59,278 bases of DNA from Deltaproteobacteria bacterium (GTDB lineage: Bacteria; Desulfobacterota; Dissulfuribacteria; Dissulfuribacterales; QOAL01): the NCBI GenBank assembly GCA_026986785.1, contig JALSNW010000005.1:1-59278 (forward strand), written 5' to 3'. Under the pieces are notes generated by a model, which saw nothing but the letters and a program-made list of their open reading frames with translations, was not told the DNA's origin and ran no database searches. Both the position numbers and the translations under genes were made by a program. Below, one piece after another: positions 5,834 to 44,072 of the stretch (its first letter is position 1; the number at the start of each line of letters is the position of its first letter).

Positions 5834-5870
5834 GGTCTTGTACAGGCAGACTGGATCAGGGGGCAGAATT

Positions 5871-7163: not shown

Positions 7164-7185
7164 ATCTTGTCTGATATCATTCAGA

Positions 7186-9017: not shown

Positions 9018-9019
9018 GA

Positions 9020-9650: not shown

Positions 9651-9666
9651 TGGCACAGCTCTTGTA
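9651..9666 (+). promoter_or_regulatory. Sigma54 promoter of the nifH operon
   Basis: TGGCACAGCTCTTGTA matches the -24/-12 consensus except for T in place of C in the -12 TTGCA. The transcript should start near 9677, about 60 bases before nifH. A perfect TGT-N10-ACA was not found upstream; TGT-N10-ACG at 9520-9535 is the best near-match, 130 bases upstream. Confidence 0.8.
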
Positions 9667-9685
9667 CTTATCCTTTCCAAACTAG

Positions 9686-10561
<876 letters not shown>

Positions 10562-10610
10562 AAAAGTCGTTGAGATGTGATTTTAACCTTGAACGAACTG
10601 GAGAGACAAG

Positions 10611-11335: not shown

Positions 11336-11374
11336 GCAGAGCGGATGGCATTGATACAGAATTTGGAGAAAGAC

Positions 11375-13018: not shown

Positions 13019-13079
13019 ACAAGGGTTTGAAGTTCAGGCATGAAAAATAGGAGAGAGATGTGAATACGGAGGTGAGATC

Positions 13080-25617: not shown

Positions 25618-25641
25618 AAGGTGTTGCCTTCCTTGACAAAT

Positions 25642-27857: not shown

Positions 27858-28792
27858 GATTCAATGTCTTTGTATGAGAATTCGAATACCACGTATCGAG
27901 GCCTTGTGAGCCTGATTAGGCCATCCGTGGCAGGCAGGGTGAATGGATCGTGTCTGTCGAGCTGCATGACGTGTCTTCTGGCATCTTGAAATCTCTCCCA
28001 GAAGTCTCTTCCTCTTGGCCTTTGTCCGGACTTTTTGGTTTTTTTTGCATAGGAACCAGAAAGGGTGCAGGTCAGATGGAGGGCTACGACGTCTTTTATT
28101 GGGAAGAAGGGGGAGCGAAGACGTTCCTCAAGGTATGAGATAGCCTCTTCCTCATTTTCAAATCCTCCTCCATCAAGGAGCATGTGTCCGGTGTCAAGGA
28201 CGATGCCGCATCTTTTATACGCCATGTTCGAAAGGATGAAGCCAAATTGCCCATGCCCCCCAAGGGTGAAGCTTCCTGGCCACCACAGGTTTTCAAACAA
28301 TACATAGCCTTCGAATTGGCTTTTCATCACGGCCTGGTCCATTATCTGACAGCTTATCTTCAAGGTGTCTTTCCAGTGGAGATCCATCTTCCAATCAAAG
28401 ACCCGATCTATACATACGTGTGCAGGATGAAAGACCACGTAGGAGCAGCCCAATGTGCTGGCAAGGTTCATCTGCTCGACATAGGTTTCAAGAAGAGTTG
28501 CTTTCCCCTGCCCTCCGTAAAAATTCCAGGCGTTTTCAAGGTCTCCAAATATTTTTTCAAGGCCAGCCAAGTCCTCTTCCCATATCTCTTTTATCAGGAC
28601 GAAAAATCGAAGGTGGACCCCTTTAACCAGCCCCTTTGGGATATCTTCATCGCAAAGGCCCTCCACAGGGTAAAGCTCTATGCCATCGAAGCCCTGGGAG
28701 TGAACAAATTCTTCGAGTCTCTGCCAGTCCTTTTCAAAGAGGGCAAGATCTGCCTTATGGGTGGAAAAATTCAGGAGAAAAGATGGTCTCAA
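27803..28792 (-). CDS. AP-endonuclease-2-like TIM-barrel protein, candidate CbiR
   Basis: The 329-residue protein has the xylose isomerase-like TIM barrel with metal-site motifs on successive strands: VVFHPAH, VLFENLWW, GIVLDTGHMLLDGG and VVALHLTC. CbiR of Akkermansia belongs to this fold and cleaves the nucleotide loop of cobamides so that they can be rebuilt with another lower base; its relatives occur in B12 gene clusters. The place between cobO and the corrinoid binding protein, behind a cobalamin riboswitch, makes CbiR the best guess. A plain sugar-phosphate isomerase is the alternative. It overlaps cobO by four bases. Confidence 0.65.
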   Translation of the reverse strand: MRPSFLLNFSTHKADLALFEKDWQRLEEFVHSQGFDGIELYPVEGLCDEDIPKGLVKGVHLRFFVLIKEIWEEDLAGLEKIFGDLENAWNFYGGQGKATLLETYVEQMNLASTLGCSYVVFHPAHVCIDRVFDWKMDLHWKDTLKISCQIMDQAVMKSQFEGYVLFENLWWPGSFTLGGHGQFGFILSNMAYKRCGIVLDTGHMLLDGGGFENEEEAISYLEERLRSPFFPIKDVVALHLTCTLSGSYAKKTKKSGQRPRGRDFWERFQDARRHVMQLDRHDPFTLPATDGLIRLTRPRYVVFEFSYKDIESWKEKIKRQKKALGTYWP

Positions 28793-29319
28793 AACTCTAT
28801 GCCCCTCTGGGCCTTGATACCTTTGATGTACGGGTGCTTTATCACTTTCATCTCGGTGACGAGATCGGCCATATCTATGAGCTCTTTGGGTGCATCTCTG
28901 CCTGTTATCACTACATGAAGCCCCGGGGGTCTGTGCTTGAAGGTGTCCAGGGCATCGTTCAAATCTACCATAGAATAGTTCAATACATAGGTGAATTCAT
29001 CAAGGACGACCATGTGGTATTTCCCTGAGGTGATGGCTGTCTTTGCCTTTCCCCAGGCAGAACGGGCAGCCTCCTTGTCTGCCTCTGGATCGTTCGATTT
29101 CCAGGTAAAGCCCCTTCCAAGGACCTGGAAGTCGATGAGATCTGAAAAACGTTTCACTGCCTCCATCTCACCATATTTCCATGACCCTTTTATGAATTGT
29201 AAGAATGCGCTCTTCATGCCATGGCCAGCAGCCCTCATACTCATGCCAAGGGCGGCAGTTGTCTTCCCTTTCCCATGACCAGTAAAGACTATCAAGAGAC
29301 CTTTGGTCTTGTGTTCCAC
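28789..29319 (-). CDS. cobO: Cob(I)yrinic acid a,c-diamide adenosyltransferase CobO
   Basis: CobO transfers the adenosyl group of ATP to Co(I) corrinoids. The modified P-loop GHGKGKTTAALG starts at residue 14, followed by FLQFIKGSWKYGE and VVLDEFTYVLNY, with GRDAPKELIDMADLVTEM near the end, all conserved in CobA/CobO. Length is 176 residues, as usual. In this operon it can adenosylate both imported cobinamides and precursors made de novo. Confidence 0.95.
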   Translation of the reverse strand: MEHKTKGLLIVFTGHGKGKTTAALGMSMRAAGHGMKSAFLQFIKGSWKYGEMEAVKRFSDLIDFQVLGRGFTWKSNDPEADKEAARSAWGKAKTAITSGKYHMVVLDEFTYVLNYSMVDLNDALDTFKHRPPGLHVVITGRDAPKELIDMADLVTEMKVIKHPYIKGIKAQRGIEF

Positions 29320-29394
29320 TTTTCTTCTCCTCTATGTAGATCTGAAATACTTCTGTTAAAGATATTTGTCCGAGCACAGCTGATTTTCATGCTG

Positions 29395-30732
29395 TCAGGG
29401 CCTATCCATGAGCCTTGTTGAATTTTTGCCTTCAACCATGCGTGACAGGCTCATTATAGTGGAGGATACCAGTTCCCTTGTCTGTGGGTGGTTTTTCTCC
29501 TCGGGCCTTGTCATGGTCGCAACTACAGGTCGCCTCGGTATATGTTCTTCCATGACCTCGAAGAGCTGGCTGGCAGAGCCAATAGGTATGACCTTGCCGG
29601 CTGTTTCATTTAGGCGGCCTGGCCTAATACCTTGTGACATTGTCAATACGTGCCTGCCCATTTCCAAGGCCTTCTCGATGATGGTCAGATTCCACTCATA
29701 GGCATTGTCAACCCAGGGCCCGGCATTGATGACGAGATCGCACTCTGCAATATTGGCAATGGCCGATTTGATGGTGTCTTGATCTGCCTCTCTGCCAGGA
29801 TGCAGACTCAGGCATTTTGCCCCAAGGCATTTTGCCACATAATAATCCACATCGTTTGACAGCAAGATCCCAGTAGTGATTTCATATCCTTCTTGGGCAA
29901 GCATCCTGTACAGGCAGGCACCCGTGCCCATCCCAGCAACCACGAAGAGTCTGCCTTTTTTGCCATCTCCACTTATCTCGATAGAGCCGAGGCGGCTGTC
30001 GAAACAGGCCCTTTCAAAATCGTATAGCCAGGCCACTGTTTTTGATGTGAGCACCTCTTCTGGATATCCACAACCCCTGACTGCCCCATCCTTTAGCAAC
30101 ATCACCCTGTCCGATATCTTTGCAGCAATGTCTATGTCATGCATGGAACAGAGGATGGTTGTCCCCTTGTCCCTGCAAAGTCTTCTTAGGATGGACATGA
30201 GCTCGAGCCTGTGTTTCAGATCCAGGTAGGCTGTTGGTTCATCGAGAAGAAGTAGCTCCGGCTCCTGGCAAATGGCCCTGGCAATAAGGAGCTTTTGTAT
30301 CTGTCCATCACTTAGGCTTGAAAAGTCCCTGCCTCCAAGCTCTTGTGCATTGACCAAATAGAGGGCATCTTCTACTGCTTTCTTGTCCTGAGAAGAAAGC
30401 CTTCCTGTAAGGCCTGTATATGGATAGCGCCCCAATGCAACGAATTGATAGACAGAGAAGAGGGCAGGGGCCACTTTTTCTGTGAGGACCACTGCCATTG
30501 TGCGCGCAAGTTCGGCCCGGGGATATTCCGTAAGGGGTTTGGCCTTTAAGTAAATTTGTCCTGATACCGGTTTGATATGCCTTGAAATAGTGCGAAGAAG
30601 CGTGGTCTTTCCTGTCCCATTTGGGCCGAGAAGACTCACGAATTCACCCTTTTCAAACTCCAGGCTGATATCAGATATGACCCTTTTCCTCCTGTATCCG
30701 ACAGATAGATCCTGTAATTTTAGTATGTTCAA
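29395..30732 (-). CDS. btuD: Corrinoid ABC transporter ATPase (BtuD-like) with extra C-terminal domain
   Basis: The first 245 residues are a FecE/BtuD ATPase: Walker A GPNGTGKTT (36-44), signature SLSDGQIQKL, Walker B LLLLDEPTAYLD and the switch His in SMHDIDIA. About 190 further residues form a second, Rossmann-like domain (GRLFVVAGMGTGACLYRML, ITTGILLSNDVDYYVAKCLG, VINAGPWVDNAYEW), absent from ordinary BtuD. I do not know its function. AGGAGG at 30739-30744 lies six bases before a TTG at 30732, which I take as start; a GTG at 30768 would put the binding site inside the gene. Confidence 0.87.
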   Translation of the reverse strand: MNILKLQDLSVGYRRKRVISDISLEFEKGEFVSLLGPNGTGKTTLLRTISRHIKPVSGQIYLKAKPLTEYPRAELARTMAVVLTEKVAPALFSVYQFVALGRYPYTGLTGRLSSQDKKAVEDALYLVNAQELGGRDFSSLSDGQIQKLLIARAICQEPELLLLDEPTAYLDLKHRLELMSILRRLCRDKGTTILCSMHDIDIAAKISDRVMLLKDGAVRGCGYPEEVLTSKTVAWLYDFERACFDSRLGSIEISGDGKKGRLFVVAGMGTGACLYRMLAQEGYEITTGILLSNDVDYYVAKCLGAKCLSLHPGREADQDTIKSAIANIAECDLVINAGPWVDNAYEWNLTIIEKALEMGRHVLTMSQGIRPGRLNETAGKVIPIGSASQLFEVMEEHIPRRPVVATMTRPEEKNHPQTRELVSSTIMSLSRMVEGKNSTRLMDRP

Positions 30733-30861
30733 ACCACTCCTCCTATCCTGCAAAGAACAGTAGGGCACACAGGCAAGGGGGAAACCCCCTGCCCGTGATA
30801 CCAGGCCCCCCTTTTTTTCGAATAGGGGAGATTGGAACAGTCATCCACACGTTCGATAGGC

Positions 30862-32913
30862 TCAAAATTCATATCTATATTCAAAGAGCCAGTGCCTGCC
30901 TGGAAGGGGAAACTCTGGCTTTTCATAGTAAAATTCATCGAATATGTTTGCTACCTGGAAACTTATATGATTTTGTTTCAAGAAGGTGAAGCCAAGGTAG
31001 AGATCCACTACTGTAAATGGCTGATATTCGATGATGGGATACCCTGGTGCATACCAGTCGTAGTCCTTCCTCTTACCCACATACCGTGCGGTTATTCTTC
31101 CATCAAAGAGGCCGTCATCATAATCAAGGCCATAGTTGAGCTTCCAGTGGGCCACGTTATGGATATCGCGCCAGCCCTTGTCCTCCAGCTTTTCCCTGGA
31201 ATAAAACAGCCTTGTGCCATCCACATACAGTTCGATCTTCCTGTGCCAGTTGAATGCCTTGCCCGCGTTCCAGTGGAATTTGAATTCCAGCCCACTCATC
31301 TCTGCATCCGAGCTGTTGCTAAAGGTGGTGAGATTGCCTTTCGTGACCCGGCTTATCTTGTCGTTGACGTTGGTGACGAAGTAGGTGACATCAGAGAAGA
31401 CCCCGAGTTTTTGCGGCCCCCAACTCACACCCCCATCCCATGTCCAACTGGTCTCTGGATCCAGGTCTGGATTGCCCTTGGTTATCATGATCGTATCTCC
31501 TACATGCCTTTCGGAATAACCAGCCATTTTATCGGCGGTTGGGGGTACAAAGGCCTTTCCTATAGTGGTATGGAGGCTTAGATTCCGCCAATTATACCTG
31601 AGCCCTGCCCTGGGGCTTATTGTATCGAACGATTCACTGCCCGGGGTGAAATCCATCTTGTAGGGTGTGTTTTTTGTCTCGAGATCAAAATAGTCATAGC
31701 GGAAACCCGCATTTAGGATGAGGCGTTCGTTGAGAAATCTCCAGTTGGTCTCAGTAAAGAATGCCCAGTTTTTCCTCTCACAGTTTGGCATCCATGGGGC
31801 CTTTCTCGAGCCGTCCCTGTTATAGCCTTTGCTGTCACGATAGATCTTTTCATAATCGACCCCAAAGGTGATATTGTGTACATCAAAGAGCTGATACATG
31901 TTCTGTAATTGCATACCCCACCATTTCGTCTCCCCATAGTACGAGTGATATGGATCTACAGAGACGTATCCTTGAGACGCAGGTATGTATTCGTATTTTT
32001 TGTAATAGTCACTACTCTCCTTGGAGCCATATAGGACGAATAGGCTTTTATTGTCTCCCCATGTGCCTTCTATGCGAAAATCCCCACCGTATCTTTCAAT
32101 GTCTTTCTGGCCTTGCTGCTCATCGAAGTAGAATAGGGCGCCAGGTGTCTCTATATCGTTTCCATAATACCAGTCACCCTTTAGATCTGCCCTCCAATCC
32201 TTAAGGAATTGGCTTCCAAGACGCAGGCTGCCATAGCCTATGTTATAAGTGGTGCCTGGCCGGGAACCGTGATCGTTTCCAAGTTCGATATCGGTATTTC
32301 GGTTGAGCGTAGAGGTGGTGAGGTCGAAGTCCAATAGGGGGAGGAGCCTACCTCCAATATGGGTGCCAGCATTCCATGTATTGAAACTGCCTGCCTGTCC
32401 ATATATCCGGCCCTTCAACTTTCCAGTGGATTTCATGGTTATTACGTTTACCACGCCCCCCATTGCCTCTGCGCCATACAAAGATGAAGCAGGGCCTTTT
32501 AGCACCTCTATCCGTTCTATGTTGTCCAGGGTGATGGTGGAAAGATTGGTTGCCCCGGCAGGACGCCCGTCAATGAGGAGAAGAGAGTGTTTGGTTATGC
32601 CTGAAAATTCAGGCCTGAATCCCCTGATTCCTATCCCAGACAGTTCTCCAGGATATTGGATTACATCCACCGTGGAATGTTTTTTCAGTATCTCTGTAAG
32701 ATCGTGACCCGGGGTCTGTTCTATCTCTTTTCGATCAATTACGTCTACCACAGCCGGAACGTCCCTTACTGGCTCAGGGGTCCTCGTTGCAGTGACTACT
32801 ATGGAATCCATGTGGTAACTTTCGTCCTTGTCTCCCTGGGCCAGACAGTCCACACCTCCAAAGACAATGACAGACAGAGCCATAATAAAGCTAAGACTCC
32901 TCGAAAAAGCCAT
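30862..32913 (-). CDS. btuB: TonB-dependent corrinoid receptor (BtuB-like)
   Basis: A 683-residue outer-membrane receptor. A signal peptide (about 1-25) is followed by the TonB box DSIVVTATRTP, a plug domain (about 45-160: DLTEILKKHSTVDV, GIGIRGF, LLLIDGRPAGATN, IERIEVLKGPASSLYGAEAMGGVVNVIT) and a 22-strand barrel ending in the C-terminal Phe (WLFEYRYEF). Specificity for cobamides is inferred from the cobalamin riboswitch and terminator directly upstream. It is the first gene of a ten-gene operon with its own ABC transporter and ExbB-ExbD-TonB. Confidence 0.93.
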   Translation of the reverse strand: MAFSRSLSFIMALSVIVFGGVDCLAQGDKDESYHMDSIVVTATRTPEPVRDVPAVVDVIDRKEIEQTPGHDLTEILKKHSTVDVIQYPGELSGIGIRGFRPEFSGITKHSLLLIDGRPAGATNLSTITLDNIERIEVLKGPASSLYGAEAMGGVVNVITMKSTGKLKGRIYGQAGSFNTWNAGTHIGGRLLPLLDFDLTTSTLNRNTDIELGNDHGSRPGTTYNIGYGSLRLGSQFLKDWRADLKGDWYYGNDIETPGALFYFDEQQGQKDIERYGGDFRIEGTWGDNKSLFVLYGSKESSDYYKKYEYIPASQGYVSVDPYHSYYGETKWWGMQLQNMYQLFDVHNITFGVDYEKIYRDSKGYNRDGSRKAPWMPNCERKNWAFFTETNWRFLNERLILNAGFRYDYFDLETKNTPYKMDFTPGSESFDTISPRAGLRYNWRNLSLHTTIGKAFVPPTADKMAGYSERHVGDTIMITKGNPDLDPETSWTWDGGVSWGPQKLGVFSDVTYFVTNVNDKISRVTKGNLTTFSNSSDAEMSGLEFKFHWNAGKAFNWHRKIELYVDGTRLFYSREKLEDKGWRDIHNVAHWKLNYGLDYDDGLFDGRITARYVGKRKDYDWYAPGYPIIEYQPFTVVDLYLGFTFLKQNHISFQVANIFDEFYYEKPEFPLPGRHWLFEYRYEF

Positions 32914-32980
32914 GTTCTTCCTCCTCTCCTGTTATGTTTTGCCAGCATGAGAGGAGAAAAGGGGCAGAGGCAAGAAGCCA

Positions 32981-33018
32981 AAAGAAAAGGCCCGGATCCA
33001 GATAATCACCGGGCCTTT
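32981..33018 (-). terminator. Intrinsic terminator between riboswitch and btuB
   Basis: On the minus strand AAAGGCCCGG (33009-33018) pairs perfectly with CCGGGCCTTT (32986-32995), followed by TCTTTT. It lies downstream of the cobalamin aptamer and before the btuB start, so ligand binding probably favours this hairpin. Confidence 0.9.
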
Positions 33019-33060
33019 GGAAAAGGCATTGCTCAAGTGACTTGGAACTTGATCCGCGAA

Positions 33061-33245
33061 GTCCCTGTTTTTCTCCCCCCAGGCCGGTCTACCGGCTCGT
33101 AGATCATCCTACTTGCTGCGCCTTCCCATTACGTATTGCTAACAGTGGCATTTTCGCAGCTTTCGTACCTACTCACGGTTGCGGGCCAGCGCCGGAATCT
33201 CACCGGACTTCCCGATTATCCCTGAAGACAGGGCACCTGAGGTGT
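33061..33245 (-). ncRNA. Cobalamin riboswitch
   Basis: Read on the minus strand, the aptamer shows AGTCCGGTGAGATTCCGG and GCTGGCCCGCAACCGTGAG, the conserved core of the cobalamin class. The B12 box AGCCGGTAGACCGGCC lies within 33079-33098. A closing stem is formed by CCCTGT (33228-33233 region) and ACAGGG (33062-33067). With the terminator that follows, it should shut off the uptake operon when cobalamin is plentiful. Confidence 0.95.
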
Positions 33246-33260
33246 TACTTTTTAAATTGT

Positions 33261-33290
33261 CGTATAATTAATTGGAAAAATCACTGCCAA
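33261..33290 (-). promoter_or_regulatory. Probable sigma70-type promoter of the B12 operon
   Basis: On the minus strand TTGGCA (33285-33290), an 18-base spacer and TATACG (33261-33266) lie just ahead of the riboswitch. The match is fair. The promoter overlaps the end of a gene remnant. Confidence 0.5.
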
Positions 33291-33534
33291 AGTCAAGTAA
33301 AAAATCTCGTTCTCCTAATTTTTTTTCATGGACCTGATCCAGCCATTTACGAAGTCCCGAGGCCCAGTCCTTCTTGAGGGCCTCTTTGGCATGACCCCAT
33401 TTGCCACTGACCGTGCCAGTGGAATATGTAGAGTCCACCCTGTGATCCATAATGGCAGCTACAACCTTGCCCGTTTCACAATCCAAGAACTCTGCCCCGA
33501 TGCTGGCCTCTCCCACATTGAGCGATTCCCCCTA
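33268..33534 (-). pseudogene. Remnant of a DUF3313-like lipoprotein gene
   Basis: Only the C-terminal part remains, starting right after an in-frame TAG. GESLNVGEASIGAEFLD, TGKVVAAIMDHR, then W-x-HAKEALKKDWASGLRKWLD follow the pattern of DUF3313 lipoproteins (strand, D-x-x-TG turn, WA-x-x-LR-x-x-LD helix). There is no signal peptide or lipobox upstream, and the neighbouring gene begins 28 bases away, so the 5' two thirds are lost. A GTG at 33516 could in theory start an 82-residue protein. Its 3' end now overlaps the B12 operon promoter. Confidence 0.55.
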
Positions 33535-33561
33535 TGTGAGGATGTTTGATTCACTGATTGT

Positions 33562-34941
33562 CTACTTCTCCACCTGGTATCCAGCATTTATCCAGGCCTT
33601 CATGCCACCAGCCAGGCTGTGTACGTGGGTGAATCCGTGACGCTGGAGAAAACTGGCAGCTATGTTGCCTCTATACCCCACCCCACAGTAGACTATCACC
33701 TCTTCATCCCTCGGTATATCCGGGATTTGTTTCAAAAGGATATTCAGGGGTAGATGCCTGGCCTCTTTGATATGACCTGAGTCCCATTCCATCTGGGAGC
33801 GCACGTCGAATAGGTGCCCGTATCTTCCTGAACTCAGTTTTTCGTGAAGTCTCGAGGCTGAGATCTGCCATAGGTGTTCGATGGGCATTCCTGCCTCTTG
33901 CCAGGCTGTGATTCCCCCGTATAGATATCCAATGATGTTGTCATAGCCTATCCTGTGGAGCTGGTTCGTCATCTCTTTGTAGGCATCTTCTCCTGTCACC
34001 ACCAATATGAGTTCGGACTCGGGCTCAAGGACCATACCTATCCAGTTGGCGGTCTGTGGGGCAAGTCCTATGTTGATTGACCCCGGGATGTGTACGCCAC
34101 CAAAGGCTGCCGTATCTCTCGTATCCAATACTACCGCCCCATTTCCCATGAAATTCTTTACCTGGACAGGACTGAGATCTCGCACTATGGGGCATCTTTC
34201 AAGGAGGGGCGGGCCTTCCATGTTGGTGCTAATGATGTGTGAGAAGCTCTTTGGCCTCTCTGGGAAATTTTTGGTCATCTCTTTGTGGAAATCCTCAAAG
34301 GAAAGCCCCAGGACAGGTATGTGGGCCATCTCAAAACCGATTGTAGAATTGGGCTTGGAGCTCATGCCCCGGCCACAAAGAGAGCCTTCACCGTGGGCGG
34401 GATAGATCTCCATATTGGCAGGCAAACCACCCAGTTTGTTGTGAAGAGAGTCATAGAGATTCTTTATCTGTTCCTCTATCAATTCTTTCCCTGCAAGGTC
34501 AGGCCTTCCAATATCCCCTACAAACAGGCAATCGCCAGTCAATACGAACCAGGGTTCTTCCGCCCTACCAAGATCTGTCACCAGGATCGACATGGAATGG
34601 GGTGTATGTCCTGGGGTTTTGAGAAATTCAAGGCGAACATTGCCCAGTTCTATTACTTGGTGTTCCTTCAACTCCTTGTGGGGGAATCTCACAGGACTGC
34701 CTTCCATGAAATAGATATCGGCACCTGTACGGGATCTCAGTTCCTGGTTTCCGCTTACGTGATCTGCATGTATATGGGTCTCGAAGATATGGGTTATTTC
34801 CATCCCATTGATCCTGGCAGACGATATATAGTCCTGCACGTCCCTCTTAGGATCGACAACACAGGCCTTTCTTGCCATTGGACAGCCAATCAGATAAGAA
34901 AGACATCCCATACCTTTTACCAAAAACTGCTTGAAAAACAT
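33562..34941 (-). CDS. Metallo-beta-lactamase-fold hydrolase with two rhodanese domains
   Basis: The 459-residue protein has an ETHE1-like metallo-hydrolase domain (about 1-245) with THIHADH at 55-61, GHTPHS and GDCLFVGDIGRPDL. Persulfide dioxygenases share this signature. Two rhodanese domains follow. The first (about 262-355) lacks the catalytic Cys: its loop reads VVTGED. The second (about 365-455) has VYCGVGYRG with the active-site Cys. Sulfane sulfur handling is the likely role, but a strict anaerobe would not use the dioxygenase reaction, so transfer or sensing may be more apt. AAGGAG precedes the start. Confidence 0.85.
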   Translation of the reverse strand: MFFKQFLVKGMGCLSYLIGCPMARKACVVDPKRDVQDYISSARINGMEITHIFETHIHADHVSGNQELRSRTGADIYFMEGSPVRFPHKELKEHQVIELGNVRLEFLKTPGHTPHSMSILVTDLGRAEEPWFVLTGDCLFVGDIGRPDLAGKELIEEQIKNLYDSLHNKLGGLPANMEIYPAHGEGSLCGRGMSSKPNSTIGFEMAHIPVLGLSFEDFHKEMTKNFPERPKSFSHIISTNMEGPPLLERCPIVRDLSPVQVKNFMGNGAVVLDTRDTAAFGGVHIPGSINIGLAPQTANWIGMVLEPESELILVVTGEDAYKEMTNQLHRIGYDNIIGYLYGGITAWQEAGMPIEHLWQISASRLHEKLSSGRYGHLFDVRSQMEWDSGHIKEARHLPLNILLKQIPDIPRDEEVIVYCGVGYRGNIAASFLQRHGFTHVHSLAGGMKAWINAGYQVEK

Positions 34942-35316
34942 GGTAATTCTCCTTTTTTGCTCGTTATTTGCAGACCAGAGATCTCACTTTTTCGAATGCA
35001 TTATATAGCCGGATTATACACTATTGTCTTGGGCAAACTTGCGAGCTGCACGATCCAGGACAAATGCCCCAAAAAGACAAAGAACATAGTCTGTTATATC
35101 ATGACATGCTGCGTTAGGGCAAATGTGATACCCCCTAAGTTATTCTACATTTTCTCGGATAAATATTTTCACCCAAAAGGCGAAGATTTTTCCGCCGCGC
35201 ATCTTGGGCAAACTTGCGAGCTGCATAATCCGGGTTAATATTGAGGCTGGTCGAAGTCTTCACAACTTGGGTATCCAAATAGTTACGAGGCACTGGGGCA
35301 AAAAGGAGAAAAGAAG
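34942..35316. other. Divergent intergenic region with repeats
   Basis: This region of about 375 bases lies between two divergent genes. Most of it (34996-35238) is MITE-like repeat sequence. The rest contains only the ribosome binding sites of the flanking genes. Confidence 0.6.
34996..35238 (+). repeat. Composite MITE-like repeat, copy 6
   Basis: Two nearly identical right ends, at 35028-35050 and 35205-35227, share 23 bases including GCAAACTTGCGAGCTGCA, followed by CGATCCAGG and TAATCCGGG. A left-type end GCCGGATTATACAC lies at 35008-35021. This looks like two nested or tandem copies. Confidence 0.65.
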
Positions 35317-35580
35317 ATGTATCGCGCACCAACCCATAGGTGGTATCTGGAAAGAATAATATGGCTCATAGCTGGCATCGTGGTGGTAGGGGGGATCTGC
35401 CTGGGCTTACTGGTTCATCCCTACTGGTTTGCCTTGCCCATACTGGCAGGGATCAATATGATCATATTTTCGTTTACAGGTTTTTGTCCGATGGCAGTAA
35501 TCTTGAACAAGACCTTTCACATAAAACCACTAATCAGTAGAGACGACATTGATGAAAAAAGGGCATTACATGAAAGATAG
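35317..35580 (+). CDS. DUF2892 (YgaP-like) inner-membrane protein
   Basis: An 87-residue protein with two membrane helices (RIIWLIAGIVVVGGICLGLLV and YWFALPILAGINMIIFSFTGF), then GFCPMAVILNKTFHIK. This is the DUF2892 pattern, which is often fused to or next to rhodanese domains, as in YgaP. Here it is divergent from a rhodanese-containing protein, which suggests a shared role in sulfane sulfur or thiosulfate handling. AAGGAG lies before the ATG. Confidence 0.8.
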   Translation: MYRAPTHRWYLERIIWLIAGIVVVGGICLGLLVHPYWFALPILAGINMIIFSFTGFCPMAVILNKTFHIKPLISRDDIDEKRALHER

Positions 35581-35601
35581 TAGCAAGCCAGAGCTCGTGT
35601 C

Positions 35602-36255
35602 TTAGACCTTGAGTGTTGGCCTTTTCCCATCCATCCTCATGGCCAGATTGTTCCAGTCTATTTCATGGAGGTTTCGGACCTGGCTATTTAGAAACCCTGA
35701 TTTCATGGCGATTTTTCTCTTGGCCCGATCTTTGATGCCGTGGAAAGGCAGCATCGCCGCTATCGCCCTGTTTTTGGCCCTTTCATCAGGACTCAGCACG
35801 TCTTGCCGTCTGGTATAGTAAGGATCCTCCCCAGGCCGACACGGCTTGTTGAAGACATTGAAGTGGCGGCAGGCAAGGGGTCTCATTGGATGGATGGAGC
35901 ATGCCCCCTCTATCAGGAAAGGGCAGGCCGAGCCCTTTCTGAAATGTGCCAACTGCCTCTTTAGGACCTGACGCTCAGGCCCCATCATCTTCTCTATCAC
36001 ATACCAATATATGCCCACCACTTCCAGGGGATAGACAGGAATTGTCACATGTGTGGAACAACAGGTAGAACATCCCTTTGTACAGGCAAGCCTGTCTCCA
36101 CGGCTGATCCTTTTGTGTATGGCCGTGGCTATTGCCTTGTCAGCAATGAAATATGCATCCAAGAGCATGGGGAGCCAGGAGATGGAGGCCTCTTCAGGAA
36201 AACACAGACGTTTGATATCTTGTGACTGGTTGTATCTTTTTTTCTTCTTTTTCAT
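35602..36255 (-). CDS. YkgJ-family cysteine cluster protein
   Basis: This protein of about 217 residues has the CxxCxxxCC-type metal-binding cluster of the YkgJ family: CTKGCSTCCSTHV, then CPFL-x4-CSIHPMRPLACRHFN. Such proteins bind zinc or an Fe-S cluster; functions are mostly unknown. A longer version starting at a TTG at 36297, directly after the cbiB stop, is possible; I choose the ATG before KKKKKR. It follows cobQ and cbiB in the same direction, so it is probably co-transcribed with them. Confidence 0.8.
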   Translation of the reverse strand: MKKKKKRYNQSQDIKRLCFPEEASISWLPMLLDAYFIADKAIATAIHKRISRGDRLACTKGCSTCCSTHVTIPVYPLEVVGIYWYVIEKMMGPERQVLKRQLAHFRKGSACPFLIEGACSIHPMRPLACRHFNVFNKPCRPGEDPYYTRRQDVLSPDERAKNRAIAAMLPFHGIKDRAKRKIAMKSGFLNSQVRNLHEIDWNNLAMRMDGKRPTLKV

Positions 36256-36297
36256 GGCGTGTCGATCCAGTAGAATCCCTATTTTGTTTTTGGCCAA

Positions 36298-37290
36298 TCA
36301 AAAAAATGCAAGGACGAGAGTTGGAATGATAAAGATGGAGAAAAAGCTTAGACTACACGTATACAGAAGACGTACTGCCTGCCTGATATGTGAGGGACGG
36401 GCAGTCGCCCCTTCCATGTTTATCACAGGATAACGTCTTGTCTTACCGAAGTAGGTGGCCTTGCCCCCGAGCCTGACATCGAGCGCAGCAGCAAATGCCG
36501 ATTCTGGAAATCCAGAATTTGGGCTTTCATGCAGGTGTGCACAGTTGAAAACGCACGAAAAGACCCTCCTCGGGCTCGATCCCCAAAATAGGGCATTTAC
36601 GGCTATTACAGGCACTGAAAGCCTTGCAGGAATGAGGTTGGCAAGGTCATCCATTCGGGCAGCAAGCCTACCAAAAAATCTATATCTATCGTCCTTGTAT
36701 CCAATCATGGAATCGAGGGTGCTTATCATCTTGAAACATATACAAAGGGCAGGACCTCCAAGGGCTGCATAAAAAAACGGGGAGATTATGCCATCGACAA
36801 GGTTTTCTGAAACGGTTTCAATGACTGCCTTGGATATGTCTTCTTCTGTCATCTCCTTGGTATCCCTGCTGACTAGCATGGAGATCTTTTCCCTGGCCGA
36901 TATCAGGTCGTTGTTTTCAAGACAGTGTGACACCTCGAGGGCTTCATCTGCCAAACACTTTAGACTTATACAGAAATATATTGCTACTGAGGCCACTATA
37001 AATAACACTATAAAAGAATATGTCTTCAGCCAGTCAAAGACCAGATAGGCACCAAGATAAGTGGCTATCACCAGCACTGCAGCCATTATGGAACCAGAGA
37101 GCATCTCGGGCCAGCGGCTCGCCCTTGCTATCTTTTCACAGGCATTGATGATCGCCCCCATCATCCTAACCGGGTGGGGCAGATCCGTCCGGTCACCAAG
37201 CGTCAAGTCCAGTAAGATCGCAGTGGCCAATATGGCTGCCCCTTCTTTGCCCAGAAAAAAAAGGTGCGAAAAGGCAAAATCAATGCCCAT
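36298..37290 (-). CDS. cbiB: Adenosylcobinamide-phosphate synthase CbiB
   Basis: CbiB is an integral membrane enzyme that attaches aminopropanol (phosphate) to adenosylcobyric acid. The family blocks are LDLTLGDRTDLPHPVRMMGAII near the N-terminus, SRDTKEMTEEDISKAVIETV, ENLVDGIISPFFYAALGGP, MISTLDSMIGYKDDRYRFFG and ESAFAAALDVRLGG. Length is 330 residues with about five membrane helices. It overlaps cobQ by 11 bases. It would rebuild the nucleotide loop on corrinoids opened by the CbiR-like protein. Confidence 0.95.
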   Translation of the reverse strand: MGIDFAFSHLFFLGKEGAAILATAILLDLTLGDRTDLPHPVRMMGAIINACEKIARASRWPEMLSGSIMAAVLVIATYLGAYLVFDWLKTYSFIVLFIVASVAIYFCISLKCLADEALEVSHCLENNDLISAREKISMLVSRDTKEMTEEDISKAVIETVSENLVDGIISPFFYAALGGPALCICFKMISTLDSMIGYKDDRYRFFGRLAARMDDLANLIPARLSVPVIAVNALFWGSSPRRVFSCVFNCAHLHESPNSGFPESAFAAALDVRLGGKATYFGKTRRYPVINMEGATARPSHIRQAVRLLYTCSLSFFSIFIIPTLVLAFF

Positions 37291-38782
37291 ACAAAATGCC
37301 TATTAGGGATTCCATGTCGCATGCCCCTTCAAACCAGTCTGCAAGGAGATCAAACTGCAAGGCCTTGAACCTCTTGTAATTGAAGGAAGAGGACACTTCT
37401 TTCATACCGTGTCTTCGCCTGACAAGATTCAAGAGGGCAGATCTGAATGTGTCGTTTTCAAAGATACCATGGATATAGGTACCCAACACCCCACGTTTTT
37501 CGTCGAATACACCGATTTCTGGTCCTAATCCCTGTCCCAGTCCCTCGCATTCCTCTTTGCACCATGTCCGGCCCATGTGGATCTCATAGCCCTGGATCTC
37601 CATTTCCTGGAGGGAAAGAGCAGGGTTGAATAGTCCAAATCTCACCTGCCTGAGGGTCTTTTCAGGGGCCATGACCGTGTGGACAGGAAGGAGTGACAAG
37701 CCCTTGTATGTGCCAGCCCTTCCATCCGTGCCATATTCGTCGACTATCTCCTGGCCGAGCATCTGGTAACCTCCGCAGATACCTACGATCAAGCCATCTC
37801 CGCAGACAAACCGCTCGAGCCATTCAAACCAACCCCTATCCCTCAGAAATGCGAGATCCGAAGTGGTAGCCTTGGTCCCGGGAATGATGATCATGTGGCA
37901 GCCGGCTGCCTCCTGGGGGTTGGCAACGATCTTTATCCCCACACCGGGCTCGAATGAAAAGGGGGAAAAGTCAGTGAAATTACTTATTCGAGGAAGCCTT
38001 ATTACGGCAATTTCGAGGTCTGCCAAAGTGTGGTCTTTCGATGTGAGCCTTTTTACAAATACACCGTCTTCTTCATCCACGTGTATGTCCCTAAACCATG
38101 GAAGCACCCCCAGGACAGGTACAGGGACTATCTGGCCAAACATCTCTATCCCTGGCTCGAGGAGGCGCACGTCCCCCCTGAACTTGTTTATCAAGAAGGC
38201 CTTGATCAAAGATCGATGCCTTGGCCGAACAAGGTCGAAGGTACCCTTCAGGCTTGCGAACACCCCACCTCTGTCTATGTCAGAGACTATTATCACAGGG
38301 GCGCCTGCATATTCAGCCATCTTCATATTTACTATATCTGTCTTTTGTAGATTGATCTCGGCAGGGCTGCCTGCCCCCTCCATCACTATCACCTCGTAAT
38401 CCTTTGCAAGGCTGTCATATGCCCTGGTCACCACATCCCAGTGGATACGGGATCGTTCATAATAGCTGACAGCCGAAAGGTGCCCCCTTGCCTGGCCCAT
38501 GAGGATCACCTGGCTCGTTGAATCTGCCGATGGTTTTAGCAGGACAGGATTCATCCTCACGTCAGGCACGAGACCACAGGCCTCGGCCTGGAATACCTGT
38601 GCCCTTCCCATCTCCTTGCCATCGGCTGTCACAAAGGAATTAAGGGCCATGTTCTGGGCCTTGAAGGGCGCCACCCTTATCCCCCTTCTCTTTAATGCAC
38701 GGCAAAAGGCAGCTACTATGATGCTTTTGCCCACGCCTGAGCCTGTTCCTTGAAACATTATGGCCTTTGTTGGTGATCTCAT
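37280..38782 (-). CDS. cobQ: Cobyric acid synthase CobQ/CbiP
   Basis: CobQ amidates four side chains of the corrin ring using glutamine and ATP. The N-terminal dethiobiotin synthetase-like domain has AIMFQGTGSGVGKS (8-21) and APFKAQNMALNS. The C-terminal glutaminase domain has GICGGYQMLGQEIVDE with the catalytic Cys and YEIHMGRT. The 500 residues are the usual length. It is the first gene of a short leftward group cobQ-cbiB-ykgJ. No cobalamin riboswitch is visible upstream, unlike the uptake operon. Confidence 0.96.
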   Translation of the reverse strand: MRSPTKAIMFQGTGSGVGKSIIVAAFCRALKRRGIRVAPFKAQNMALNSFVTADGKEMGRAQVFQAEACGLVPDVRMNPVLLKPSADSTSQVILMGQARGHLSAVSYYERSRIHWDVVTRAYDSLAKDYEVIVMEGAGSPAEINLQKTDIVNMKMAEYAGAPVIIVSDIDRGGVFASLKGTFDLVRPRHRSLIKAFLINKFRGDVRLLEPGIEMFGQIVPVPVLGVLPWFRDIHVDEEDGVFVKRLTSKDHTLADLEIAVIRLPRISNFTDFSPFSFEPGVGIKIVANPQEAAGCHMIIIPGTKATTSDLAFLRDRGWFEWLERFVCGDGLIVGICGGYQMLGQEIVDEYGTDGRAGTYKGLSLLPVHTVMAPEKTLRQVRFGLFNPALSLQEMEIQGYEIHMGRTWCKEECEGLGQGLGPEIGVFDEKRGVLGTYIHGIFENDTFRSALLNLVRRRHGMKEVSSSFNYKRFKALQFDLLADWFEGACDMESLIGILYGH

Positions 38783-39151
38783 CTATGGAATAGGGGAGAC
38801 AAGGTGAGCATTGATGTGTCAACTGTTTTGAGATGGAGGTTTGACATAACAAGTACAAAATAGATTAAACAAGGGATAGAGGCAATAATTTTGCCTGAAA
38901 ACTTGAATTTGAGCAGATGTTGAATTAAATATGGAACTGCTTTTTATATCATAAATGCTTTATTGCCTGCAGCCCTGCCCGCGAAACAAGAAGATTCGTT
39001 ACAATCCCCAGACAAATTAGGATAGTGGCGCAGCCTGGCAAAAGTGTATCTCCAAAGGTACACCCACACCAGGACAATGATTTGGTTGCAAAGGGCTTGC
39101 AGGGCTTTTTCTTGTTGTGGAACTATAATCAAAGTAGTCGAGGAGATATCT
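38783..39151. other. Divergent intergenic region cobQ-hisS
   Basis: This gap of about 370 bases lies between divergent genes. TTGACA at 38841-38846 with ATTAAA 17 bases on (38864-38869) is a possible rightward promoter. No B12 box, tRNA or frame was found that I would defend. Confidence 0.5.
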
Positions 39152-40423
39152 GTGGCTATAAAGGCAGTCAGAGGATTCAAGGACATACTTCCAGAAGAGG
39201 CGCTGGCCAGGGTGAGGATAGAGGATACTGCCAGAGAGATCTTTGATCTGTGCGGTCTCAAGGAGATCAGGACCCCTATCTTAGAGAAGACCGAGGTCTT
39301 CAAGCGAGGAATAGGTGAACATACAGACATAGTAGAGAAGGAGATGTATACCTTTCTCGACAGGAATGGTGATTCCTTGACCCTCCGTCCAGAGGCCACC
39401 GCAGGGATCGTCAGGGCGGTGATCCAGCATAAACTCTATGGCAAGAGCCCCCTTCTCAAGCTCTTCACCATGGGCCCTATGTTCCGCCACGAAAGGCCGC
39501 AAAAGGGTAGGCTTCGGCAGTTTCATCAGGTCAATGTGGAATATCTTGGTTCTAGGGAACCGGCATCTGATGCAGAGATAGTCTGGCTGGCCTGGGAGAT
39601 GGTTACCAGGCTTGCTGGTTCGGAGGATCTACTGGTAGAGATAAATTCCCTTGGATGTGAAAAGTGCAGGCCTCTTCATAGGGCAGACTTAAAGGTCTAC
39701 CTCGAGAACAACAAGGGAGACCTCTGCGAGGATTGCCAGCGAAGGATGAAGCTAAATCCCTTGAGGATATTCGATTGCAAGAACGAAGAATGCAGGCGCA
39801 ATCTTCTCCTTGCCCCTGTCATGAAGCACTATCTCTGTCCCGATTGTTCCGAGCACCTGGGGGCCGTGTTGGATATACTTGAGGCATACGGGGTGCCCTT
39901 TGTACAGAATCCCTATTTGGTAAGGGGGCTTGATTACTATGTGAGGACAACATTTGAGATAACCTCCAAGAGGCTTGGTGCCCAGAGCACAGTTGCAGCA
40001 GGGGGGCGGTACGATGGCCTGGTAGGCCTCATGGGAGGGCCGGACATACCTGGGGTCGGTATGGCAGTCGGGGTGGAAAGACTCCTTCTCCTCATGGAGG
40101 GGTCTGTTGCCCCAAAAGGTATAGATCTTTTCATTGCTGCCCTTGGCCAGGATGCCAGGGATGAATCCTATTTCTGGATAGGATATCTGAGACGCAAGGG
40201 AGTTGGTGTGGAATTCTCCTTCGAGGACAAAAGTCTCAAGGCCCAGATGAAACAGGCCGACAAGGCAGGCGCCCGCTATTGTCTCATTGTAGGTGAGCAG
40301 GAGCTTGACAAAGAGGTGGCCATCTTAAGGGACATGGAGACCAAACAACAAGAAGAGATAGAGCTTGACGACCTTCCAGAGGCACTCGTGGAAAGGATAA
40401 GGAACAAGAAAGCAGGAGACTAA
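39152..40423 (+). CDS. hisS: Histidyl-tRNA synthetase
   Basis: A class II synthetase that charges tRNA-His. Motif 1 lies at IRTPILEKTEVFKRGIGEHTDIV, motif 2 at MGPMFRHERPQKGRLRQFHQ, the histidine A motif at LVRGLDYYVRTTFEI and motif 3 at GVGMAVGVERLLLL; an anticodon-binding domain follows. A longer frame begins at 39044, but the conserved start (AIKAVRGFKDILP) follows a GTG at 39152 with GAGGAG seven bases upstream. That gives 423 residues, the normal length. aspS starts five bases after the stop. Confidence 0.97.
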   Translation: MAIKAVRGFKDILPEEALARVRIEDTAREIFDLCGLKEIRTPILEKTEVFKRGIGEHTDIVEKEMYTFLDRNGDSLTLRPEATAGIVRAVIQHKLYGKSPLLKLFTMGPMFRHERPQKGRLRQFHQVNVEYLGSREPASDAEIVWLAWEMVTRLAGSEDLLVEINSLGCEKCRPLHRADLKVYLENNKGDLCEDCQRRMKLNPLRIFDCKNEECRRNLLLAPVMKHYLCPDCSEHLGAVLDILEAYGVPFVQNPYLVRGLDYYVRTTFEITSKRLGAQSTVAAGGRYDGLVGLMGGPDIPGVGMAVGVERLLLLMEGSVAPKGIDLFIAALGQDARDESYFWIGYLRRKGVGVEFSFEDKSLKAQMKQADKAGARYCLIVGEQELDKEVAILRDMETKQQEEIELDDLPEALVERIRNKKAGD

Positions 40424-40427: not shown

Positions 40428-42227
40428 ATGGAATCGATGGGAGGGCTGAAACGCACCCATGACTGTTACAGTATCACTGAGGAAAGTCTTGAGGCAGAAG
40501 TAGTACTCATGGGATGGGTACACCGTCGCCGTGACCACGGTGGACTTATATTCGTGGACCTTAGAGATAGGAAGGGGATTACACAGGTAGTATTCGCACC
40601 AGAGGTGGACGAAAAGGCCCATCAGAAGGCCCATTCTTTGAGGAGCGAATATGTGATAGCCGTAAGGGGCAAGGTGCGAAGACGTCCAGAGGGCATGGAA
40701 AACCCCAAGATAAAGACCGGAATGGTAGAGGTCGCCTGTACTGAGCTGAGGATCCTCAATACCTCCAAGACCCCTCCTTTTCCCCTTGACGAGGATAGGG
40801 AGGTATCAGAGAGCGTGCGCCTCAAGTATAGGTATATCGACCTTAGAAAGGCCCACATGGTGGCAAATCTCACCTTGAGACATAGGGTCTGCCAGGCCAT
40901 GAGGGAGTATCTGAGCAGACATGATTTTCTAGAGATAGAGACCCCTATGCTTACCAGGAGCACCCCAGAGGGGGCGAGGGATTATCTCGTGCCCAGCCGC
41001 GTGAATCCTGGCAGGTTTTATGCCCTTCCCCAGTCGCCACAGCTCTTCAAGCAGATCCTAATGATCGCTGGCATGGAGAGGTACTTTCAGATAGTGCGCT
41101 GCTTCAGAGATGAAGACCTGCGGGCTGACAGGCAGCCCGAATTCACCCAGTTGGATATGGAGATGTCCTTCATAGACGAGGAGGACATAATGGGCCTTAT
41201 CGAGGGATTGATGCAGCATGTGTTTTCCAATGCCTTAGGGGTGGAGCTCAATCCCCCGTTTCCGCGGTTGACCTATCAAGAGGCAATGGAACGCTTTGGA
41301 ACCGACAGGCCTGACACGAGATTTGGTCTGGAGCTGGTGGACATAACTGACATAGCATCTGGATGTGGGCTCAAGGTCTTCAATACCATTGTAGAAAGTG
41401 GAGGAGTGGTAAAGGCCATAAACGGCAAGGGCATGGCAGATCTTTCCAGAAAGGACCTGGATGTGCTAACTGAATTTGCCCAATCCTTTGGGGCAAAAGG
41501 GTTGGCCTGGGTGAAGATAAAGGAAGAGGGAAGTTGGCAGTCTCCAATAGCGAAATTTTTCAAACATAATGAACAGCAGGAGATAATGGAAAGACTTCAG
41601 GCAGTCCCAGGTGATATATTGTTTTTCGGAGCGGATACTGCAGAGACCGTTTACAGGGTACTCGGAGAACTCAGGCTCGAACTTGCCAGAAGACGCAATC
41701 TATTGCCTGGGAAGGGTTTCAATTTCGTCTGGGTTACCCATTTCCCCCTGTTGGAATTCGACGAGGATGAAGGCCGGTTCAAGGCCCTTCATCATCCATT
41801 TACTGCCCCAAGCAAGGAGGACCTGGACCTTTTGGACACAGAGCCCTCCAGGGTGCGTTCAAGGGCCTATGACCTCGTCTTGAACGGCATAGAGATAGGC
41901 GGTGGAAGTATTCGTATACACCAGGAGGCCGTGCAAAAAAGGGTCTTCAAGGCCTTGAATATCAGTGATGAAGAGGCTGAAGAAAAGTTTGGTTTTCTAC
42001 TCGAGGCCCTTACCCTCGGCGCCCCACCTCATGGTGGCATAGCCTTTGGTTTGGATAGGTTGGTCATGCTCATGGCTGGCCGTGACACCATCAGGGACGT
42101 GATTGCATTTCCAAAGACCCAAAAGGCCCAGTGTCTCATGACACATGCACCGGCAGAAGTCAGTATGGCCCAGCTTGCAGAGCTATATCTAAGGCCTGAC
42201 TGGCAAAGAGAAGAAGACCTTTCTTAG
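40428..42227 (+). CDS. aspS: Aspartyl-tRNA synthetase
   Basis: A class II synthetase of 599 residues. An N-terminal OB-fold anticodon domain (VLMGWVHRRRDHGGLIFVDL) precedes the catalytic domain with FLEIETPMLTRSTPEGARDYLVPSR, QSPQLFKQILM, FRDEDLRADRQPEFTQLDME and the C-terminal GGIAFGLDRLVMLMAG; a bacterial GAD insertion domain lies between. The length and insertion are typical of the bacterial enzyme. Whether it is discriminating or also serves tRNA-Asn cannot be told from the sequence by eye. Confidence 0.97.
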   Translation: MESMGGLKRTHDCYSITEESLEAEVVLMGWVHRRRDHGGLIFVDLRDRKGITQVVFAPEVDEKAHQKAHSLRSEYVIAVRGKVRRRPEGMENPKIKTGMVEVACTELRILNTSKTPPFPLDEDREVSESVRLKYRYIDLRKAHMVANLTLRHRVCQAMREYLSRHDFLEIETPMLTRSTPEGARDYLVPSRVNPGRFYALPQSPQLFKQILMIAGMERYFQIVRCFRDEDLRADRQPEFTQLDMEMSFIDEEDIMGLIEGLMQHVFSNALGVELNPPFPRLTYQEAMERFGTDRPDTRFGLELVDITDIASGCGLKVFNTIVESGGVVKAINGKGMADLSRKDLDVLTEFAQSFGAKGLAWVKIKEEGSWQSPIAKFFKHNEQQEIMERLQAVPGDILFFGADTAETVYRVLGELRLELARRRNLLPGKGFNFVWVTHFPLLEFDEDEGRFKALHHPFTAPSKEDLDLLDTEPSRVRSRAYDLVLNGIEIGGGSIRIHQEAVQKRVFKALNISDEEAEEKFGFLLEALTLGAPPHGGIAFGLDRLVMLMAGRDTIRDVIAFPKTQKAQCLMTHAPAEVSMAQLAELYLRPDWQREEDLS

Positions 42228-42254: not shown

Positions 42255-44072
42255 ATGATCAAATGGAATCCTGACAAAGGGTTACTGTGTTACACAAAGG
42301 AATACAGGTTGGCAGACGTTGAGGAACCAGATCTCATGAGGGATCTTTTCCCATATAAGGAGGTCTGCCGGATAGCCTTTGACAACAAGTACTTGGTCCC
42401 GCAGCCCTGCCGGGATATGCTCATAACGGATACAACCTTCAGGGACGGACAGCAGGCCAGGCCACCTTATACAGTGGAACAGATAAGCAAGATCTTTGAT
42501 TTCCTACACAGGATGGCTGGTCCAAAGGGGATCATCAGGCAATCGGAATTCTTTCTTTACACCGACAAGGACAAGAAGGCAGTGGCCGTCTGCCAGGAAA
42601 AGGGCTATCCCTATCCAGAGATCACAGGCTGGATAAGGGCCAAGAAGGAAGATCTGCAACTGGTCAAAGAGATGGAGCTTGAGGAAACTGGTATCCTCAC
42701 CTCCGCCTCTGACTATCATATCTTCCTGAAGCTCAAAAAGACCAGGAAGGAGGCTATGGAGGGCTATCTCTCCATAGTTCGGTCTGCCCTGGATCTTGGT
42801 ATCAGGCCCAGGTGTCACTTCGAGGACATCACAAGGGCCGATATCTATGGTTTTTGCATACCATTTGCAATAGAACTCATGAAGCTCAGGGAAGAAAGCG
42901 GCATAGATATAAAGATCAGGATGTGTGACACCATGGGATATGGCATAACCTATCCTGGTGCTGCCTTGCCAAGAAGTGTTCCCAAGGTGGTGAGGGCCAT
43001 GATCGACGATGCAGGTGTCCCAGGGGAACTCCTCGAGTGGCACGGGCACAATGATTTCCACAAGGTGGTGATAAATGCCACCACCGCCTGGCTCTATGGC
43101 TGCGGTGTCATAAATGGTACGCTCCTGGGCTTTGGGGAAAGGACAGGGAACACACCCCTCGAGGCCCTTCTCATCGAGAGGATTGCCCTCAGAGGTGATG
43201 CAGATGGTATAGATACCAGGGTCATAACGGAAATGGCCGAATATTTTGCAAAGGAATTGAATGTCCACATACCTGCCAACTATCCCCTTGTTGGAGAAGA
43301 TTTCAATGCCACGAGCGCTGGCGTGCATGCCGACGGTCTCCTAAAGAACGAAGAGATCTACAATATCTTCGACACTGCAAAGATACTCGGAAGGCCGGTA
43401 TCTGTTATTATATCCGACAAGTCGGGTACAGCCGGCATTGCCCACTGGATCAATACCCATCTTGGCCTCAAGGGTTCTCAGCAGATAGACAAGAGACACC
43501 CTGGTATTGTCAAGATATACAAACAGATAATGAAACAATACGAAGAGGGCAGGGTCACTTCCATGTCAAAGTCCGAGATGGAAAATCTTGCAAGGAAATA
43601 TCTGCCAGAGCTGTTCACATCCGACTTTGACAGGCTCAAAAAGCGGGCCCACAAATTGGCATTCCATCTCGTGGAAGAACTCGTTGAGACCCCTGAGATC
43701 CGCTCTATGGATCCAGCGCGCATGGAGCCCTTGCTGAAAAGGGTGTTGGATGAAAATCCATTTATCCAATTTCTATATGTGGTGAATGCTGAGGGGGAAA
43801 AGATCACCCATAATATCACGCACATAGAGGACAGGAGCAAATATGCATCCTTCCAATTGGACAGTGATTTTTCAGGCAGGCCATGGTTCATCGCACCCAT
43901 AAAAGATGGCAAGATACACGTCACTGATTTTTATACATCCAGGATTACCAATGCGCTCTGTATTACTGTCTCGGGCCCTGTCAGAAACGAAAATGACGAG
44001 ATAGTCGGTGTCCTTGGCATAGATATACGTTTTGAGGACCTTGCAAAGATGGATGGTGATAACAATGAATAA
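42255..44072 (+). CDS. Homocitrate/isopropylmalate synthase-like enzyme with Cache-like C-terminus
   Basis: Residues 50-370 form a DRE-TIM barrel as in homocitrate synthase, isopropylmalate synthase and Re-citrate synthase: ITDTTFRDGQQ at 57-67 and the metal-binding HGHND at 263-267, with GNTPLE at 299-304. The last 105 residues or so look like a Cache/PDC sensor (SGRPWFIAPIKDGKI, TDFYTSRITNALCITVSGPV, VGVLGIDIRFEDL), without membrane helices. The product could be homocitrate, needed for FeMo-cofactor since nifV is not in the window, or citrate. The Cache part suggests ligand control inside the cell. AGGAG precedes the start; length 605. Confidence 0.75.
   Translation: MIKWNPDKGLLCYTKEYRLADVEEPDLMRDLFPYKEVCRIAFDNKYLVPQPCRDMLITDTTFRDGQQARPPYTVEQISKIFDFLHRMAGPKGIIRQSEFFLYTDKDKKAVAVCQEKGYPYPEITGWIRAKKEDLQLVKEMELEETGILTSASDYHIFLKLKKTRKEAMEGYLSIVRSALDLGIRPRCHFEDITRADIYGFCIPFAIELMKLREESGIDIKIRMCDTMGYGITYPGAALPRSVPKVVRAMIDDAGVPGELLEWHGHNDFHKVVINATTAWLYGCGVINGTLLGFGERTGNTPLEALLIERIALRGDADGIDTRVITEMAEYFAKELNVHIPANYPLVGEDFNATSAGVHADGLLKNEEIYNIFDTAKILGRPVSVIISDKSGTAGIAHWINTHLGLKGSQQIDKRHPGIVKIYKQIMKQYEEGRVTSMSKSEMENLARKYLPELFTSDFDRLKKRAHKLAFHLVEELVETPEIRSMDPARMEPLLKRVLDENPFIQFLYVVNAEGEKITHNITHIEDRSKYASFQLDSDFSGRPWFIAPIKDGKIHVTDFYTSRITNALCITVSGPVRNENDEIVGVLGIDIRFEDLAKMDGDNNE

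Follow-up and report, generated by a model that had tools for sequence, protein, structure and literature searches.

A predicted Re-citrate synthase with a cytosolic Cache domain, most likely a built-in sensor, in a Desulfobacterota genome with nif genes

Which acid is made by a soluble synthase that shares a stretch of DNA with nitrogenase genes, and what does a sensor domain do at its C terminus? The question was raised by one gene in the window, by which we mean the whole stretch of DNA analyzed here (59,278 nt of contig JALSNW010000005.1). The initial annotation had read its 605-aa product as a homocitrate or citrate synthase-like enzyme with an intracellular Cache-like domain, and had proposed that it either supplies homocitrate for FeMo-cofactor or acts as a Re-citrate synthase. 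Judging from sequence and predicted structure, we consider that the gene encodes a DRE-TIM Re-citrate synthase whose cytosolic Cache domain is most likely a built-in allosteric sensor (probability of roughly 0.8). We infer the catalytic activity from what is reported of the Syntrophus aciditrophicus enzyme, and likewise infer ligand binding, allostery, and ligand class. The gene and its parts are as follows.

42255–44072, plus strand: predicted Re-citrate synthase carrying a Cache domain at its C terminus, 605 aa (open reading frame with ATG start; Pfam)
42423–43238, plus strand: HMGL-like DRE-TIM catalytic domain, residues 57–328 (Pfam PF00682, 97.4 bits, cut-off 29)
42426–42455, plus strand: ITDTTFRDGQQ core motif, residues 58–67 (alignment of relatives)
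42810–42818, plus strand: R186-x-H188 (in 113/113 aligned family members; absent from six NifV sequences)
43035–43055, plus strand: EWHGHND, residues 261–267 (H263 and H265 in 113/113)
43293–43472, plus strand: post-barrel region like HCS_D2, residues 347–406 (Pfam 19.7 bits, under the cut-off of 27)
43608–44069, plus strand: C-terminal Cache/PDC domain with N-terminal helices, residues 452–605 (AlphaFold model, structure alignment, PF22673 and PF02743)
43878–43889, plus strand: Cache pocket motif R542-P-W544-F545 (aligns with R-x-W-Y of PctA)
44022–44024, plus strand: Cache pocket residue D590 (aligns with the motif Asp of PctA)

Catalytic residues are conserved. Residues R63, D64, Q66, and Q67 of the core motif, to which we assign the catalytic/metal role usual in the DRE-TIM family, are kept in 112 of 113 aligned relatives (the remaining one has a gap); H263 and H265 of EWHGHND are presumably metal ligands; and H358 and Y369 of the post-barrel region occur in all 113. 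R186-x-H188 may have a role in the choice of substrate. These counts come from a 113-row alignment without 18 of the 32 loci L001–L032, which thins near relatives (the leuA locus L002 and the cimA locus L003 are among those left out). One locus with a broken frame (L096) was kept out of all alignments and another (L137) out of the tree; the alignments A2 and A3 have 66 and 64 rows, respectively. An AlphaFold model of the full protein (mean pLDDT 88.4, pTM 0.73) resembled homocitrate and isopropylmalate synthases, with a Foldseek match to homocitrate synthase 6ktq at E = 1e-24.

The protein is 61% identical over 602 aligned positions, Cache domain included, to the product of locus L151 in genome G477, which we take to be S. 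aciditrophicus SB. An order-wide search found one family copy in G477, encoding a protein of 629 aa and 71,766 Da. This fits the tagged subunit of ∼72.9 kDa of the S. aciditrophicus Re-citrate synthase (SYN_02536) that Kim et al. reportedly purified in 2013 and are said to have found active with only oxaloacetate and acetyl-CoA. If G477 is indeed that organism, its Re-citrate synthase has the same HMGL plus Cache architecture and the same gene order as ours; the window protein differs in lacking ∼25 residues of C-terminal tail and in nothing essential. Enzymes of this kind are already known, and the best-studied relative probably shares the architecture. An excerpt of a published account also counts S. 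aciditrophicus among the sources of known Re-citrate synthases (PMC12016533). The shared order, hisS-aspS-synthase, involves the two genes upstream.

40428–42227, plus strand: aspS, directly upstream of the synthase (Pfam tRNA-synt_2 and GAD)
39044–40423, plus strand: hisS, upstream of aspS (tblastn; pairs with hisS of L151, Pfam tRNA-synt_His)

Across the family, 39 of the 77 Cache-bearing loci that have >1.5 kb of upstream sequence carry aspS immediately before the synthase gene, and three more have it slightly further off.

The family extends to enzymes that end before the Cache domain. A Re-citrate synthase was reportedly described from Clostridium kluyveri by Li et al. in 2007, and this enzyme and its anammox homologs have the catalytic domain in common with the window protein. 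Over residues 1–450 the Kuenenia (L147) and Brocadia (L144) proteins are 59.6% and 60.3% identical to it, but anammox members stop near 457–463 aa, without the Cache domain that the window protein has. The Cache-less Kuenenia hertensis relative (L147) falls inside the family in our tree, and the part of PMC8027424 available to us gives 55.1% identity between a K. stuttgartiensis gene and the C. kluyveri Re-citrate synthase. Of 99 near relatives, 65 matched at E ≤ 1e-60, with identity down to 58%–59%.

Genome content is consistent with this assignment. The host genome (G000; 99.2% complete) has no match to the Si-citrate synthase family PF00285, and three DRE-TIM-related proteins were found in it: the window protein, LeuA, and citramalate synthase, the latter two over their cut-offs. 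We then turned to 394 genomes of the phylum with completeness ≥90%. The Re family was present in 200 of these and PF00285 (a family that takes in related enzymes, methylcitrate synthase among them) in 212; 157 genomes had the Re family only, 169 PF00285 only, 43 both, and 25 neither (Fisher P = 5e-42 in a test that ignores kinship). With 43 genomes having both and 25 neither, the two citrate synthases are mostly, not completely, exclusive. The 61% identity, the gene order, and the absence and near-exclusion of the Si enzyme lend good support to the Re-citrate synthase half of the original proposal; homocitrate synthesis as the main role did not hold up, for reasons given below. At the barrel, acetyl-CoA and oxaloacetate would be joined to citrate, from which 2-oxoglutarate and then glutamate are reached, and the host, an anaerobe without Si-citrate synthase, would have the Re enzyme as its citrate source.

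The C-terminal domain is well supported as a Cache fold. MCP-like_PDC_1 (PF22673) matches residues 491–597 at 64.5 bits (cut-off 27) and dCache_1 (PF02743) residues 473–596 at 45.1 bits, just at its cut-off of 45; both match all 64 family members scanned (E ≤ 0.01). Predicted alone, residues 452–605 gave a Cache fold (pLDDT 87.2, pTM 0.83), most similar to KinD (4jgo_B; Z 15.8, rmsd 3.6, 143 aligned residues), followed by McpA (Z 14.8), PctC with GABA (5ltv_A; Z 14.1, rmsd 3.6, 139 aligned), CitA (Z 14.1), and Tlp3 with isoleucine (Z 13.5). The domain that the initial annotation had recognized on a DRE-TIM synthase is therefore borne out by Pfam over cut-off, by the KinD match, and by structure prediction of the C-terminal residues. 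Its proposed range of 495–605 roughly agrees with the Pfam matches; the modeled domain with its N-terminal helices begins farther upstream, near residue 452. The claim that the protein lacks a membrane helix was also upheld: we found no transmembrane helix, the highest 19-residue Kyte–Doolittle mean being 1.03.

This location sets the domain apart. Cache domains make up, according to the portion of PMC12889525 available, the largest extracytoplasmic sensor family and usually lie outside the cytoplasm between membrane helices, a placement that the 605-aa protein does not share. KinD, Tlp3, PctA, PctC, and CtaA have a fold like that of the window Cache domain, and the pocket residues of PctA (R-x-W-[YF], Y, D) are alike, but these are extracytoplasmic receptor domains, whereas ours sits on a soluble enzyme free of membrane helices. 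A search of the open-license literature found no published description of a Cache domain on a Re-citrate synthase. A looser parallel is YkuI of Bacillus subtilis, an EAL protein with a C-terminal PAS/Cache-like domain that is soluble and may be cytosolic, so that a cytosolic Cache-like domain would not be unique. The YkuI_C family matches 24 of 64 members (PDB chain 2bas, E = 7.7e-4); in YkuI the Cache-like domain is joined to EAL and in the window protein to a metabolic synthase. LeuA and homocitrate synthase likewise are DRE-TIM synthases with a C-terminal domain and possible feedback, but there the domain is of the LeuA_dimer/RAM type and not a Cache fold; leucine acts on LeuA through a quite different regulatory domain.

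We examined conservation of the pocket among relatives. The Cache domain is present in 97 of the 113 aligned proteins; 13 end without it, and three (L108, L121, and L139, which we left out of the count of Cache changes) are cut or partial. W544, S562, and D590 are invariant over the 97, and F545 (96), T571 (96), T565 (94), and R542 (92) nearly so, even where identity to the window domain drops to about 28%–33%. The 13 Cache-less relatives retain the catalytic residues, which suggests that the Cache domain is dispensable for catalysis in this family. Because the pocket is near-invariant while Cache-less relatives exist, we read the domain as a probable regulatory sensor in the cytosol, and the direct feedback on the enzyme that had been suggested from its layout is plausible. 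A small metabolite, which might be an amino acid or another carboxylate, would enter the pocket formed by R542, W544, F545, Y560, and D590; its binding would alter enzyme activity or assembly, and it would be one that reflects either the glutamate branch or the cell's nitrogen state.

It is rather unlikely, by comparison, that the domain is merely a structural or oligomerization module in which ligand sensing has been lost. Cache-less relatives exist, and PAS and Cache domains also serve in dimerization, according to the accessible part of PMC8694187; yet the residues that align with a chemoreceptor ligand pocket are near-invariant in a domain that otherwise drifts to ∼30% identity.

In a profile alignment with PctA, the pocket residues correspond to the R-x-W-Y, Y, and D elements of the motif for amino-acid binding, given in the part of the source at hand as [YFWL]xxxx[RK]xW[YFW]..[YFW]..D (dCache_1AA; PMC11237719). 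The full motif occurs in 11 of the 97 Cache-bearing relatives, and the motif minus its first position in 90 of 97 (and in 13 of 9,700 shuffled tails). At that first position, five residues before R542, the window protein has S537, and unlike amino-acid sensors it thus lacks the first aromatic; a strict dCache_1AA amino-acid sensor was therefore rejected, and an amino acid as the ligand is a guess. Among other Cache structures with a comparable Z, the ligands include citrate, pyruvate, and dicarboxylates, and a complex of KinD with pyruvate has been solved (title of 4jgp); a small carboxylate or an amino acid appears likely.

The fusion is not private to one lineage, a possibility that we discarded because Cache-bearing loci span many phyla. 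By record titles and phylum labels, which may be wrong for metagenome-assembled genomes, these loci belong to Thermodesulfobacteriota, Nitrospirota, Spirochaetota, Omnitrophota, Elusimicrobiota, Lentisphaerota, Fibrobacterota, Margulisiibacteriota, and Auribacterota; the domain is absent from the Planctomycetota and Bacillota relatives seen. Presence or absence of the Cache domain changed at least three times on a quick tree, in which outgroup branches are long and rooting is uncertain. A Cache domain with a near-invariant pocket on a soluble citrate synthase, in many anaerobic lineages, points to a possible control at the entry to glutamate: through it, a small metabolite probably adjusts the initial step in making glutamate. 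The enzyme of S. aciditrophicus has reportedly already been produced in E. coli, which would make it a ready test system.

Could the protein instead be, or double as, the synthase that provides homocitrate for FeMo-cofactor, or could its citrate replace homocitrate in diazotrophs without NifV? The window has nif genes at 3038–14453, with nifE, nifB, nifA, nifH, nifD, and nifK over their cut-offs and a NifN-like protein below its own.

11345–13018, plus strand: nifD (NCBIfam nifD, 671.8 bits, cut-off 653.55)

Right after nifK, positions 14377–15702 encode a protein of 442 aa that matches NifB below threshold (90 vs. 344 bits); a separate nifB over cut-off is located at 5814–7163.

No nifV was found in the window, as had been noticed before, and a search of the host genome was also negative at the curated cut-off. 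A separate nifV together with a normal citrate synthase, the pair held to speak against the original proposal, did not turn up in the host genome either, where neither gene was found. To see whether this was a wider pattern, we surveyed 85 of the 100 nif-positive genomes (37 with the Re family only and 48 with the Si family only, leaving out 15 with both citrate synthases), using a profile of six NifV proteins and match classes (full-length, shortened, ambiguous) that we set by E-value, matched span, and open-frame length. Full-length NifV was detected in three of 37 Re-only genomes versus 43 of 48 Si-only genomes, and any NifV candidate in 15 of 37 versus 47 of 48. The other Re-only genomes had shortened NifV-like matches (11), an ambiguous match (one), or none (22, from nine families); the other Si-only genomes had ambiguous matches (four) or none (one, G060). 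The missing nifV is thus real and wider than expected, and the scarcity of full-length NifV in nif-positive genomes dependent on the Re enzyme raises the question of which acid sits in their nitrogenase cofactor. The 11 shortened matches among 37 lower the contrast between Re-only and Si-only genomes. They are possibly split or truncated NifV. The shortened matches were seen in G122, G147, G191, G211, G338, G369, and G400 (f50) and in G235, G273, G310, and G417 (f84); they cover profile positions ∼7–268, and most lie on the nifD contig, within ∼10 kb of nifD.

Supply of the cofactor acid by this protein nevertheless remains unlikely. In its favor are the nif genes in the window, a genome without NifV in which leuA and cimA are the only other DRE-TIM genes found, the contrast in full-length NifV just described, and a statement, in the part of PMC9968304 available, that the MoFe protein carries sub-stoichiometric citrate in strains deleted for nifV. 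Against it, the Re family is independent of nifD (counted at E up to 1e-190): it is present in 52 of 100 nif-positive and 148 of 294 nif-negative genomes (odds ratio 1.07, P = 0.82), as expected of a general citrate synthase and unlike an enzyme dedicated to nif. The protein scores 136.1 bits against the NifV model TIGR02660 (cut-off 462.9), although this cut-off also excludes many of the phylum's NifV-like proteins that are linked to nif, and R186-x-H188, universal in the family, is found in none of the six aligned NifV. The S. aciditrophicus enzyme reportedly uses only oxaloacetate, the shortened NifV-like matches in 11 of 37 genomes weaken the contrast, and G060 has nif with neither NifV nor the Re enzyme. 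Our low estimate reflects the equal frequency of the family without nif, a signature unlike that of NifV, and the lack of both enzymes in G060. A main function in homocitrate synthesis was rejected on the strength of the model score, the independence from nif, and the active-site signature. That in NifV-less Desulfobacterota diazotrophs the Re enzyme might also furnish the FeMo-cofactor acid, as homocitrate made from 2-oxoglutarate in a side reaction or as citrate for a cofactor able to work with it, with Cache tuning by nitrogen state, is a long shot.

Another DRE-TIM activity, such as that of 2-isopropylmalate or citramalate synthase, is very improbable: the protein has sub-threshold NCBIfam matches to all related DRE-TIM families, but the genome already encodes leuA and citramalate synthase over cut-off, in the catalytic-part tree the family stands apart from the rows for nifV and leuA (100% SH-aLRT; outgroup branches are long), and a Pfam scan (E up to 1) found no LeuA_dimer, RAM, or leucine-type regulatory domain. 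LeuA and citramalate synthase were accordingly rejected as identities, since G000 encodes both elsewhere; the LeuA equivalog score is 94.1 bits against a cut-off of 598.7.

No NCBIfam model reaches its cut-off for the 605-aa protein, and proteins of this family, unnamed by any such model, are therefore easily given the name of a homocitrate or isopropylmalate synthase; as a rule for annotation, they should be labeled as neither. Finally, we noted a cobalamin/corrinoid block on the minus strand of the window (22849–38782), with genes for TonB, TolQ/ExbB-like proteins, a CbiK-like chelatase, a BtuC-like permease, cobA, CobD/CbiB, a CobQ-like amidotransferase, and a TonB-dependent receptor.
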